Shown here piece by piece: positions 28,112 to 32,363 of a stretch of 32,363 nt of DNA. A model generated the notes under the pieces. It was not told where the DNA came from and made no database searches. It saw nothing but the letters and a program-made list of their open reading frames with translations. Position numbers and translations under genes: made by a program. Position 1 is the first letter of the stretch. The number at the start of each line of letters is the position of its first letter. This DNA is from Mycoplasmataceae bacterium (GTDB taxonomy: Bacteria > Bacillota_I > Bacilli_A > Mycoplasmatales > Mycoplasmoidaceae), in assembly GCA_031258945.1 (NCBI GenBank), contig JAIRME010000022.1, forward strand, positions 1 through 32,363, given 5' to 3'.

Positions 28112-29101
28112 TTAATTCGTTTCTATACGCTTATAAAGCGTTTTAGCATATCTATTTGAATAATGGGTAAATTCATTAACGTGATTCATAACGGACATTC
28201 ATTTATTTTGGAAGAACATATTACTAGTTTTAATAATGGTTCCGTTGATTAAACAATTAGCAACATCAGTGGCATCAACATTACGAATTGATGAAATGAT
28301 ATAGTGTTCCATTACAACACGAGGTGTATTACCCAAGACCATGGCAATTGTTTGAATATCAATATTAGCTTCAGACATAATCGTAGCTAATGTTCTTCTT
28401 AAACTATGCGCTGATCAATAGAAACTAAATTTAGCTCATTGTCGAAATACACGGAAACCTTCACCAATAATAGATATGCTTAATTTTTTATTGTCTTCAA
28501 CAAAATATTTATAACATTCAACAGGAATATAAATCTCACGTTGCTTACAAGTTTTTTCAGTATTAATAATAATTTCAGCACGCTCTGATAAATCAATTTG
28601 AGATTTAATAAAACGTTGTGCAGGAGATAATGATCAATTAATATTACATAATTCACCAATTCTCATACCAGAGCATAATAGAGCTTCAAAAGCATAATAA
28701 ATTTTTAAACGACATAAACGAGTGTGTTGACGTTTATTAATAACCATTTTACTTAGTGGTAAATTTATTCATTCATTGAATTTGCGACGTATTAATGAAA
28801 TTTGTTGTTGATCTAAACGCGTTGTCATTTTTGAAATTTCACCAGGATGAGATTCGATTCACTTATCATTAAATTTATCATAACCGTAAAATAAATTAAA
28901 TGACCAACGAAACATACTAGTTGTACTGTGAGCAGAATTTTTATTTTTCATTAATCTAGTAATGCTATTAGCTTTAAAAATGTTTTGTTTTGGATTTTTA
29001 CTGAAACATAAACGATATTTTTTTAGCAAATAGTAATAGTATAGATTTTTGCGTTGCTTGGCTAAATTTAATAATTTTTTAAAAGTGATAATTGGTTTCA
29101 C
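28112..29101 (-). CDS. Tyrosine recombinase / phage-type integrase
   Basis: Site-specific DNA recombinase, 329 residues read through several TGA(Trp) codons. Catalytic residues can be placed: Arg147 in SGMRIGEL, a Lys in the beta-hairpin (NTEKTCKQREIYIP), His232 and Arg235 in AHSLRRTLAT, and nucleophile Tyr267 in VVMEHYI. The usual LGH motif reads LGN (Asn258), a change of the third active-site His. About 60 residues follow the Tyr, longer than in XerC/D. The start is GTG at 29101 behind a strong SD (AAAGGAG). In mycoplasmas such enzymes serve integrated elements or invert promoters of surface proteins. Here the neighbourhood suggests an integrated element. Palindromes cover its upstream region, so it may be autoregulated. 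Confidence 0.85.
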
Positions 29102-29198: not shown

Positions 29199-29624
29199 TT
29201 AAGAAATAGTTAATGTAGTTGTAAATGGCGCCAAACTTTCTACGCTATCAACTTTAATTTGAAGAATAAAAGTATACACACCAACTTCAGATGCACTAGT
29301 TCATTTAACTTTATCATCAGAAATGGATAATCATGACGGTAAAGTTTGACTACCAGTCATTAAAATAACAAAATTAGGAGTAGGAGTTTTTCCGCCGTTT
29401 TTTGAATCACCTTCGATTAAAAATTGAAATGTTTGATCAGATTCTCCAGAAGTTTGAGCATTACCAAGAACGGTTGTAGGCCCATCTGTAATTGAAATTT
29501 TACTAATAGTATAACTTGGCAAACATGTCGTCAAAATAGCTGTTGTAATTCCACCAAAAGCAAAAAATGCAAACATTATTACAATTACTTTATTTTGTTT
29601 TATTCATGTTAATATTCTCTTCAT
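29199..29624 (-). CDS. Small secreted or anchored protein with one Ig-like domain
   Basis: A 141-residue product. The N-terminus KRILTWIKQNKVIVIMFAFF is a basic segment followed by a hydrophobic helix that continues to about residue 36, a signal peptide or signal anchor. The rest looks like a single beta-sandwich of the putative-Ig/cadherin-like type: PSWLSISDDKVKWTSASEVG followed by VYTFILQIKVDS, the usual 'LPxWLs...GxYtFtlqvtDs' pattern. Trp codons are TGA. An SD (AGGTGG) and a -10 TATAAT (29656-29651) precede it. It lies between the recombinase and the structured RNA, so it may be a surface or virion protein of the element. No ligand can be inferred. Confidence 0.6.
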
Positions 29625-30683: not shown

Positions 30684-31469
30684 ATGGTGTCTAAGAAAGA
30701 AAAAATACAAGAAATTTTAAAACAACCGAGCATAAAAACATTACTTTTTATACTCGTTAAATGAAGTAATTTAACAAGACCTCAAATGGCTAAATTAATT
30801 AATTTAAGTGAGCGTCAAATAACTAATCTTTTAAAAATTATTGATCCTAAGCCTTACGAATCTGAAGATAAAGGTTTAAACTTAGTTGTCTTTAAAGAAT
30901 ACCCTTATAGCTCCAAAAGATTGTATAGCGCAACAAGTTATGCACAACGTCGATTAGGCGTCGTTAAAGGCATAGAGAATGGCAACCGAATAAAGTTATC
31001 CGCTAGATACGATACTAAATTTAATTTCTACGAAGTAGAACATACAGATTGATGTATTAAAGCTTTATTAAAAGAATTTGATAATAAACCTTTTGATTGA
31101 AAGCAGTATCTAACTGCACGAGAGATAGGCCAACGATGATATGAAATTTATAAAGATATTAAAGAAATATGGCACGCTGGCGTTGAAGAGAGAAAACCAG
31201 ATTTATTAATTTTAAACAAGGATTTAAAAGGACAGATTTGTATCGAAGTAGAAAATACTCCTAAATCTGAAAAACGTATGCGCATAGTTTTAAGAAGTCT
31301 TTATGCACTAGGCGACTATGCTAAACGTTTTAAGCAAGTTAAAATTTATGCGAATGAAAAACTACCAGTCTATAACAAATGGAAAAATTTGATACCATAT
31401 ATTGACTCGGGTGATGCTCCAGAGCATTTAGAAATTCTTAAACTCCATGAAAGTTTAGAGAAATACTAA
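30684..31469 (+). CDS. Winged-helix DNA-binding protein with nuclease-like C-terminal region
   Basis: A 261-residue protein read through several TGA(Trp) codons. Residues 1-55 form a helix-turn-helix (KWSNLTRPQMAKLINLSERQ followed by ITNLLKII). The C-terminal half has PDLLILNKDLKGQICIEVEN followed by TPKS, a PD-x-ExE-x-K arrangement like PD-(D/E)xK nucleases and like the replication-relaxation proteins of Firmicute plasmids and integrative elements. I infer a role in replication or mobilisation of the element. The ATG at 30684 has AAAGGA ten bases upstream; another in-frame ATG at 30675 is too close to it. The gene is divergent from the structured RNA and convergent with the RHH gene. Confidence 0.65.
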
Positions 31470-31478
31470 TTAACAGTC

Positions 31479-31539
31479 TATCTATAAAATGTATAGATAA
31501 TATTTTATCTATATAAATATAGATATTTTTTTATAGATA
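31479..31539. repeat. Left octamer array (TATCTATA/TATAGATA)
   Basis: Five exact copies of one octamer: TATCTATA at 31479 and 31506, and the reverse complement TATAGATA at 31492, 31518 and 31532. They are spaced 12-14 bases start to start, in the gap between two convergent genes. The phasing of a little over one helical turn suits cooperative binding of a dimeric protein. Confidence 0.8.
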
Positions 31540-31542
31540 CGT

Positions 31543-31929
31543 TTATTTAATTATGCTTTCAATAAAAGCTTTGATAAAACCGTTCACTGTTGTGCCGTTT
31601 TTTCTAGCAATAGCTTCAAACTTAACATAATCATCAGCTAAAATACTACACCCAGCATTTTTATATACTTTTCGTTCTAAATTTTTAGGTTGTTGTAATT
31701 TAGCAAGCACTAATTTTGTATCTATATTTTTTATAGATATCTTTTTATCTACACTGTGTGTAGATACATTAGATTTTGTTTTGTGCATAATGTAATTAGA
31801 CAATTGTTCCAAAGTTGCCGTACGTAAAGATTTATTATTTTTGTCTTTAATACGATATTTGTTTGTGTCTATCTGGTCTACTGTTCATCCAGTTAATTTT
31901 TCATATTGTTTGATGATTTGTTTATTCAT
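31543..31929 (-). CDS. Ribbon-helix-helix-like DNA-binding protein
   Basis: A 128-residue basic protein. The C-terminal 45 residues read VYKNAGCSILADDYVKFEAI then ARKNGTTVNGFIKAFIESII, a strand-helix-helix pattern with the polar turn between helices seen in CopG/Arc/Omega-type repressors. The N-terminal 50 residues (NKQIIKQYEKLTGWTVDQID) are helical and unassigned, and the middle is Lys/Ile-rich. The start is ATG at 31929 with SD AGGA; Trp16 is TGA. Octamer repeats lie upstream, downstream and inside the gene, so it probably binds them as autorepressor, copy-number regulator or partition protein. Fold assignment is by eye. Confidence 0.65.
31719..31766. repeat. Octamer repeats inside the RHH gene
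   Basis: TATCTATA (31719) and TATAGATA (31732) are exact; TATCTACA (31746) and TGTAGATA (31759) are one-base variants forming their own inverted pair. Start spacing is 13, 14 and 13 bases, the same phasing as outside the gene, although the bases also encode the Lys/Ile-rich middle of the protein. Confidence 0.75.
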
Positions 31930-31939
31930 TTTTATTTCC

Positions 31940-32037
31940 TATCTGTATAACTTTATCTATAAAAATCATAATACATTATCTATAGAACTATATAGATATC
32001 TTTTTATCTATATTTATATAGATACTTTTTATAGATA
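31940..32037. repeat. Right octamer array upstream of the RHH gene
   Basis: TATCTATA at 31954, 31977 and 32005; TATAGATA at 31991, 32017 and 32030; a one-base variant TATCTGTA at 31940. It covers the whole promoter region of the RHH gene, as expected for autoregulation, and could also serve as an iteron origin or centromere. Confidence 0.8.
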
Positions 32038-32042
32038 TCGTC

Positions 32043-32094
32043 AATAAAGAAAAATCATGGTAAGTAAGCTTTTAAGGGCTTAAACCCATGATTT
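32043..32094 (-). terminator. Terminator of the coiled-coil protein gene
   Basis: AAATCATGG (32052-32060) pairs with CCATGATTT (32086-32094), with an inner stem TAAGC/GCTTA. On the minus strand it is followed by TTTTTCTTTATT. It ends the partial gene to its right and insulates the octamer array. Confidence 0.8.
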
Positions 32095-32129: not shown

Positions 32130-32363
32130 TTAAGGATGAGATTTCATGTAGTCAGTAACGACTTTATTAAATTCATCTTGTTTATCTAAACGAGTGTTGA
32201 TGGTTTTGAAACCAGTACGCATTTCCTCTGCCAACTTTTCTACCGTTTGCTGTAATGATGTCACTACTGAACGCAAAGGAGGTAGATTGGAACTTGAAGA
32301 GGTTGTATTATCTGGACTAGGACCAGGATTATGTGGTTTACGTTTCTTAGTTTTCGTTTTAAC
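32130..32363 (-). CDS. C-terminal part of a coiled-coil protein (cut by window edge)
   Basis: The last 77 residues of a minus-strand gene that begins outside the window. A Pro/Ser/Asn-rich linker (KPHNPGPSPDNTTSSSSN) is followed by a heptad-like helix (LQQTVEKLAEEMRTGFKTIN then TRLDKQDEFNKVVTDYMKSH). No family is recognised. A short C-terminal coiled coil often serves for oligomerisation. It may belong to the same accessory element. Confidence 0.6.
   Translation of the reverse strand, partial: VKTKTKKRKPHNPGPSPDNTTSSSSNLPPLRSVVTSLQQTVEKLAEEMRTGFKTINTRLDKQDEFNKVVTDYMKSHP

Follow-up and report, generated by a model that had tools for sequence, protein, structure and literature searches.

A putative ribbon–helix–helix gene family in probable integrative conjugative elements of mycoplasmas, with a different DNA word arrayed in and around the gene at each locus

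Members of the ribbon–helix–helix (RHH; MetJ/Arc) superfamily share a β-α-α domain of about 45 residues, which forms dimers with an antiparallel DNA-reading strand. Superfamily members that recognise short repeats close to the genes encoding them are already well known. Those that serve as relaxosome accessory factors (SmpO, MobC, NikA, Aux) are encoded beside the relaxase gene of a conjugative element, bind oriT near nic and stimulate transfer; those of partition systems (Omega, ParG, ParR) are encoded together with a ParA or ParM NTPase. The closest functional analogue of the locus described here is SmpO of the pWBG749 family of staphylococcal plasmids, together with its oriT sites ossA and ossB (PMC8136818). 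As in the present case, SmpO is an RHH protein of a conjugative element, and its alleles each read their own short sites next to the gene. In the part of that report drawn on here, the sites are dyad-symmetric, one residue of the RHH β-strand switches specificity, and autoregulation is proposed (PMC8136818). Partial texts of four further papers supply other points of comparison. The RHH genes for MobC of RA3 (PMC4175270) and for Aux1 and Aux2 of pLS20 (PMC5675868) lie beside a relaxase gene, an arrangement also met in one relative below (G006). For Omega of pSM19035, also an RHH protein, numerous short parS repeats of either orientation span the promoter of its own gene (PMC9499535). The λ O protein has repeated binding sites, oriλ, in the middle of its own gene (PMC3985674).

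The locus to be compared with these systems lies in the window, by which the whole 32,363-nt stretch of DNA analysed is meant. Its features are given below; word clusters have no assigned strand.

28112–29101, minus: tyrosine integrase (PF00589, E 1.6e-9).
29199–29624, minus: membrane or lipoprotein-like protein with a weak putative Ig domain (PF05345, E 2.5e-4, below cut-off).
30684–31469, plus: convergent gene for a 261-aa MobC-like protein of the replication-relaxation family (NF041423, E 0.043, far below cut-off).
31479–31539: downstream word cluster, five exact copies, in the 3′–3′ gap between the convergent RHH and MobC-like genes.
31543–31929, minus: RHH gene, 128 aa in code 4 (TGA = Trp), assigned from the open reading frame, an AF2 model, VIA structure matches and relatives; predicted α-β3-α N-domain (aa ~1–53), disordered linker (aa ~54–91) and C-terminal RHH domain (aa ~92–128).
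31719–31766: linker-codon word cluster, two exact and two one-mismatch copies, alternating in orientation and in two reading frames.
31940–32037: upstream word cluster, six exact copies and one with one mismatch, between the RHH start codon and the end of the upstream gene.
32053–32093, minus: conserved hairpin followed by a T-rich tract, the probable terminator of the upstream gene, outside the array.
32130–32363, minus: 3′ part of a gene for a coiled-coil-like protein (by appearance), cut by the contig end; stop codon placed by eye.

The octamer TATAGATA/TATCTATA occurs 18 times in the window, compared with a mean of 2.5 and a maximum of 7 in dinucleotide-shuffled versions of it (0/100 reach 18). 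Thirteen exact copies fall within 31479–32037; an earlier note on this DNA had counted eleven or more, on both sides of the gene and within it, and the count stands. Across the gene and 250 bp on each side, the shuffle maximum is 4 (0/100 reach 13). The copies form three clusters, before, inside and after the gene, separated by stretches of 187 and 195 bp that hold no exact octamer. Successive sites are spaced by 13, 14, 12 and 14 bp in the downstream cluster, by 13, 14 and 13 bp in the linker cluster (two of its four sites with one mismatch), and by 14, 23, 14, 14, 12 and 13 bp in the upstream cluster (one site with one mismatch). The constant 12–14-bp phasing claimed earlier describes most spacings and is broken by the one of 23 bp. 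The further claim that phasing runs through the coding region is right for the linker codons (~aa 55–71), to which the inner cluster is confined; the codons of both folded domains have no exact octamer. Within the clusters the octamer alone is conserved and the spacers differ. The genome of the window (G000; 835,014 bases in 46 contigs) holds 72 octamers, 33 and 39 on the two strands, so distributed that octamers are not equally common elsewhere: 59 lie in the ~834 kb outside 31479–32037, against 13 within it. Because the word read backwards, taken as a control, totals 78 genome-wide, the copies elsewhere are at chance level, and away from this locus nothing marks the octamer out as scarce or otherwise unusual. 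A scan of the upstream cluster returned no promoter-like consensus. As RNA, the downstream cluster folds better than shuffled versions (z −3.5 and −2.9). RNA hairpins were ruled out as a general reason for the repeats, since the words of one relative (G021b) are mostly direct repeats.

A Pfam search with the window protein gave no match. An AF2 model, built from a four-sequence alignment, predicts an α-β-β-β-α N-domain (aa ~2–51, pLDDT about 90), disorder at aa ~54–93 (pLDDT below 50), and helices at aa 98–110 and 115–127. Among the 50 VIA matches listed, 10 align to model residues 85–128, at Z 3.0–4.2, weak by the tool's standard. All 10 are what we take to be RHH proteins (PutA, Arc, AmrZ, DinJ, ORF56 and others). 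Pfam RHH_7 is matched by one of four members (E 0.0013) and not by the window protein itself, and a Foldseek search alone gave no significant match. On this evidence, the C-terminal domain is very likely an RHH domain. The RHH-like protein of the earlier note is thereby retained: the 10 C-terminal matches, all of weak Z and to proteins classed here as RHH, and the RHH_7 match of the relative do not point to an unrelated fold. The N-domain has no convincing fold assignment; its best VIA match is T7 Gp1.2 (Z 4.7). The same domain also occurs near the C-terminal end of long proteins in the genus (L012, 1489–3105, minus; L016, 1–1692, plus; L018, 1360–3126, minus; L019, 1495–3168, minus). The long protein of L018 has a weak condensation-domain match, and two of these proteins adjoin a TatD-like gene, as judged by eye.

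A single-sequence search found relatives in 4/149 genomes, that of the window included, and a profile search in 14/95 genomes of the family. At the level of the order, a six-sequence profile matched 12/320 genomes, all but one from the genus of the window; the exception, G136, is similar at the domain level only. Two matched genomes are the Mycoplasmataceae MAGs Po218_bin18 and Cc175_bin15, presumably from termite guts. Direct tblastn beyond the genus gave no matches among phages, plasmids and viral_contigs, and a genome_contigs search returned three loci, each a copy of one already known. The comparison set comprises seven loci in five genomes, so that the gene–repeat pair recurs in four other mollicute genomes, all of the same genus. 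The loci, with their approximate words, are as follows.

G000: window gene, word TATAGATA/TATCTATA.
G033a: L006 6217–6636, word TTAATACA.
G021a: L007 6925–7341, word GTTAATAC.
G021b: L008 8534–8971, word TATAGTGAA.
G033b: L037 14450–14887, word TGGTAGACA.
G019: L034 3887–4681, word GGTATACC.
G006: L046 9284–9793, word TTAGTAAAC.

Weak profile matches were not counted as members. These are L012, L016, L018 and L019 (N-domain only), L015/L050, L017/L051, L025, L027/L069, L061 and L063/L067; also not counted were L021 and L022 (an unrelated AAA protein, by eye). The counts likewise exclude L003/L009 (G025), cut by a contig end, and L026/L028/L047 (G021:C9), a broken copy with the word TATAGTGA; L066 (G006:C4) stands outside the seven-locus set. 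In the broken copy (L047 2482–2859, plus) the TATAGTGA clusters are still present. L069 (1300–2319, minus) and L061 (595–1668, plus) encode a Fic-like core, by eye, followed by two C-terminal RHH-like repeats; k-mer counts against shuffles revealed no word array around them. G136, whose genome measures 2.1 Mb and which belongs to the same order, has two copies (L063 and L067), near transposase sequences, of an RHH-like gene preceded by what looks by eye like a ParA-like fragment, possibly a true ParA–RHH partition pair.

The six relative loci carry arrays at the same three positions as the window, each with a different word, and in 7/7 loci words adjoin the start codon. Over the gene and 250 bp on each side, the most frequent 7-mer exceeds all 100 shuffles in 7/7 loci and the most frequent 8-mer all shuffles in 6/7 (G006, 5/100). 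The same test on eight control loci, with RHH-like or N-domain genes, revealed no enriched k-mer. One real exception exists: L029 of G021 (1231–1785, plus; G021:C28) encodes a full-length relative without an array, with a relaxase relative about 2 kb off, and provides a natural case in which to ask why the array is needed. In the 32–80 kb examined of each contig, strong sites occur almost only at the RHH gene; elsewhere, G019 has three word pairs at the junctions of nearby ORFs, and G021b has one pair within a duplicated block. Some clusters share duplicated blocks of 24–116 bp, including a 57-nt duplication at 91% in G033a, and to judge from these sequences word identity may derive partly from duplication. 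In the element of G021b a 116-bp word-cluster block is duplicated at 98% (L005 1382–1497 and 2980–3095), beside two related genes.

The presence of words inside the genes was assessed by a swap test. The 170-bp flanks of each gene, without its coding sequence, supplied one 7-mer per locus, whose copies were then counted in all seven genes; the flank words were partly picked with the whole locus in view, ties going to the 7-mer seen in the whole locus. Every gene contains its own flank word (7/7; 2, 4, 1, 3, 4, 2 and 4 copies, 20 together), and words of other loci occur in 1/42 combinations. The tied alternatives AACAATA (G033a) and CTATAAA (G021b) have no copy in the coding region. Codon-shuffled genes hold on average 1.2 own-word copies and at most 7 (0/5000 reach 20); for single loci the codon shuffle is weak in G021a (1172/5000 reach its one copy) and modest in G000 (60/5000). 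The flanks alone are significant in 4/7 loci (0/300 shuffles), with 17/300 in G033a, 51/300 in G006 and 74/300 in G033b. In-gene words lie mainly in the disordered linker. The exceptions are one copy close to the stop codon in G033a and another in G033b, a variant pair likewise by the stop codon in G006, and, in G021b, two looser matches within or bordering the N-domain codons plus one close to the RHH strand. Because the in-gene words stand in mixed frames and orientations and encode unrelated short peptides, they are not a peptide repeat. Together with the swap test and codon shuffle, this supports an earlier suggestion of selection for DNA sites on top of coding.

The surroundings of the gene point to a mobile element. 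The integrase family of the window is present in 5/5 genomes and on the contig of 7/7 RHH loci. A MobC-like protein, recognized by mutual similarity and weak NF041423 scores, is encoded beside or near the RHH gene in G000, G021a, G033a and G033b; scores of its relatives (0.019 in G033b, 0.012 in G005) are likewise far below cut-off, and its predicted structure had a mean pLDDT of 46.5, so was left unused. The lipoprotein-like gene sits at the same place in G021a, and the coiled-coil-like gene is likewise upstream of the RHH gene in L004 and L009. The hairpin at 32053–32093 is conserved in G000, G021a and G025 and is also found behind copies of the upstream gene that occur without an RHH gene (L080 and L082, in G000:C7 and G006:C14). 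Since these solitary copies carry it too, it is probably that gene's terminator, and a role as oriT was rejected on the same ground; it probably marks former insertions of integrative conjugative elements (ICEs). VirB4_plasma, of the mycoplasma ICE family, is matched in G006 (1.6e-77) and G021a (7.4e-60), and the elements of the relatives also carry coupling proteins. In G006 a MobP3 relaxase gene (2.9e-10) begins 4 bp past the RHH stop codon. The RHH gene has a relaxase relative close by in 2/7 loci (G006 and G021b, 4 kb off in the latter); in G019 one lies 37 kb away on the same contig, and none was found in G000 or G033. SSB-like and DnaC/IstB-like genes share a gene block with the RHH gene in G021a. 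By these conjugation genes of the relatives, a location of the RHH loci in ICEs is supported, in agreement with the mollicute mobile element that the earlier note had envisaged. The window itself holds the integrase end of an incomplete element, the contig ending at 32363. Just outside the element, a ribosomal protein L10 leader (RF00557; 26990–27116, minus) precedes rplJ/rplL-like genes. An antitoxin reading, suggested by a RelE/YafQ gene 1.4 kb from the RHH gene of G021a, was dropped, there being no toxin gene beside the window gene.

A model that we regard as moderately probable is of a two-domain ICE protein whose gene is its own binding platform, and which represses itself and marks the ICE. 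The proposed steps are these. (i) The C-terminal RHH domain would form dimers that read the octamer. (ii) Sites 12–14 bp apart, in either orientation, would seat several dimers side by side. (iii) The three clusters (promoter side, linker codons and 3′ end), about 230–250 bp apart, would be bridged into one nucleoprotein complex. (iv) Once assembled, the complex would act as repressor of the RHH gene; transcription of that gene probably begins in the upstream cluster, after the upstream gene's terminator. (v) Through the N-domain, which may be a docking domain common to host and ICE, the complex would mark the ICE region for the mobilisation or maintenance machinery. (vi) Reader and word would change together, giving each ICE lineage a private specificity, as for SmpO and oriT. 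The parts of the model differ in strength. Autorepression is quite probable; with the hairpin probably terminating the upstream gene, transcription of the RHH gene would begin in the array, a position that suits such control. Bridging of the clusters is put forward tentatively. A relaxosome or oriT-like role as the main function is possible, with doubt slightly the stronger.

The protein might instead be a plain autorepressor: it would silence only its own gene or the ICE, and the inner and 3′ clusters would be auxiliary looping operators. The sites beside all seven start codons and the extra word pairs at neighbouring ORF junctions of G019 fit such a role, and RHH relaxosome proteins such as RA3 MobC also autorepress, according to the text available (PMC4175270). 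What it leaves unexplained is the fast change of specificity and the downstream cluster of G000 and G021a, which is flanked by two convergent stop codons, a place with no evident purpose for an operator. On account of that cluster, a complex across the gene with an added ICE role is favoured, and autorepression as the whole function appears somewhat unlikely.

The earlier note had proposed partition or replication control. As a partition system, the array would be a centromere and the RHH protein a ParB-like binder of the Omega, ParG or ParR type, retaining the excised circular ICE. ParR repeats have a spacing near the 12–13 bp seen here, which counts for partition. Omega/parS, with its repeats in both orientations over its own promoter, is a precedent (PMC9499535), and for SegB it is described, in the portion of the paper used, that RHH partition sites can lie within genes (PMC12284271). 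The genomic context speaks the other way: the element is integrated in the chromosome here, and none of the ParA-like (PF13614) genes of the five genomes lies beside an RHH gene, the one on the same contig being 42 kb away in G021 (adjacency in the window being judged on an element cut by the contig end). A StbA/ParM search of the five genomes was silent, as was its control, and carries no weight. Partition is less likely for want of an adjacent ParA-like gene, and we consider it rather unlikely. The recurrent neighbours are the integrase and mobilisation proteins, and the earlier proposal stands as one of several candidate roles.

Replication control could also take the λ form, an origin inside the initiator gene, with the RHH protein opening the ICE origin and the N-domain recruiting a helicase loader. 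We know of no RHH replication initiator, and ICE replication usually proceeds from oriT; both points count against such an origin, as does the fact that the clusters lie around the gene no less than within it. The SSB-like and DnaC/IstB-like genes of the G021a block would suit it, and the array is iteron-like and within the gene of its presumed binder, as oriλ is within gene O (PMC3985674). Any unwinding element would be masked in this AT-rich genome. An origin seems quite improbable.

In the preferred model of a self-binding ICE protein, the RHH protein would be the reader of the words. Across seven loci, words tend to be more alike where the last 45 residues of the RHH protein are more alike (r 0.48; 81/5040 permutations as high); across six, the correlation of word similarity with RHH-domain identity is r 0.50 (19/720 permutations). 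The corresponding values are r −0.22 (585/720) for the first 55 residues, the N-domain, and r 0.09 (265/720) for the integrase. In this small sample of six to seven loci, the word thus correlates with the RHH domain, not with the N-domain or the integrase. RHH-domain identity is highest between G021a and G033a (48%), whose words share TTAATAC. A T-K-I/L-K motif in the presumed strand accompanies words with GTnnAC (G033b, G019 and G006; from the alignment, by eye for G019), and C-S-I/L accompanies the words of the remaining loci. The residues flanking the strand I/L presumably face the DNA, as in Arc. Identity between G000 and G021a is 65% for the integrase, 67% for the MobC-like protein and 63% for the lipoprotein, but 29% for the RHH protein, and each of the two loci has its own word. 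The pattern looks as though the reader and its sites change, or are swapped, together. In all likelihood, so far as sequences can tell, the RHH protein is the reader. Another ICE protein, either the integrase at arm sites or the MobC-like protein, would have in its favour the same-family integrase on all seven contigs and the MobC-like gene close by in four; word similarity does not track integrase identity, and both proteins are 65–67% identical between two loci with different words, so that such a reader is very improbable. Self-spreading short palindromic repeats or slippage, with no protein reader, could draw on the larger duplications that contain some repeats (116 bp at 98% in G021b, 57 nt at 91% in G033a) and are the least probable explanation, since in G000 the octamer alone is conserved between differing spacers, the words are concentrated at one gene, occupy the same three positions across seven diverged loci and vary with the RHH domain, and no equal density was seen at other genes in 32–80 kb per contig.

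What stands out most is that protein and word co-vary across the family, and that the sites extend into the codons for the protein's linker. In the open-access literature, no family with sites in its own linker codons and a different word per member was found. It is conceivable, if somewhat doubtful, that the linker is kept since its codons are binding sites of the same protein, so that gene, protein and array make up one exchangeable unit. If so, ICE lineages of one genus swap or diversify this unit while neighbouring genes stay 63–67% identical, and a private code keeps co-resident ICEs, of which G021 and G033 each have two kinds, from acting on one another. The family provides seven natural protein–word pairs for decoding RHH specificity, a natural system for following joint change of a protein and its target sites, and an example of protein sequence shaped by DNA-site selection. 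It also offers a candidate cis-acting control region for the little-studied ICEs of gut mycoplasmas, and a search rule for the DNA target of an unknown regulator: seek a flank word in its linker codons.

Set beside the known systems, the locus has partial likenesses. The parS heptads are 7 bp long, contiguous and overlap promoters, in contrast to the 12–14-bp spacing here; Omega works with the ParA protein Delta, of which no adjacent counterpart was found here (PMC9499535, in part). The oriλ iterons are 19 bp long and belong to an unrelated initiator, and the text available describes no clusters flanking the gene on both sides (PMC3985674). In style, the Aux1 site TGGTACCA and the Aux2 site TGTGCAT, present in three copies, resemble the words here (PMC5675868); MobC and Aux, likened by description, differ in that the accessible accounts describe no in-gene array (PMC4175270, PMC5675868). 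The relatives' VirB4-type ATPase is of the same family as that of mycoplasma ICEs (NF045975 VirB4_plasma, Mbov_0397 family). The elements here carry a tyrosine integrase, whereas the M. agalactiae ICE is assigned to a Mutator-like superfamily (PMC6030558). SmpO comes closest. Its GNNNNC core is also met by 3/7 words here (GTAGAC, GTATAC and GTAAAC; PMC8136818). The differences, on the part of that account used, are of position and number: the RHH domain is N-terminal in SmpO and C-terminal here (PMC8136818), and the SmpO sites are two per oriT, upstream of the gene, whereas here up to 15 lie in three clusters, one of them in the coding region.
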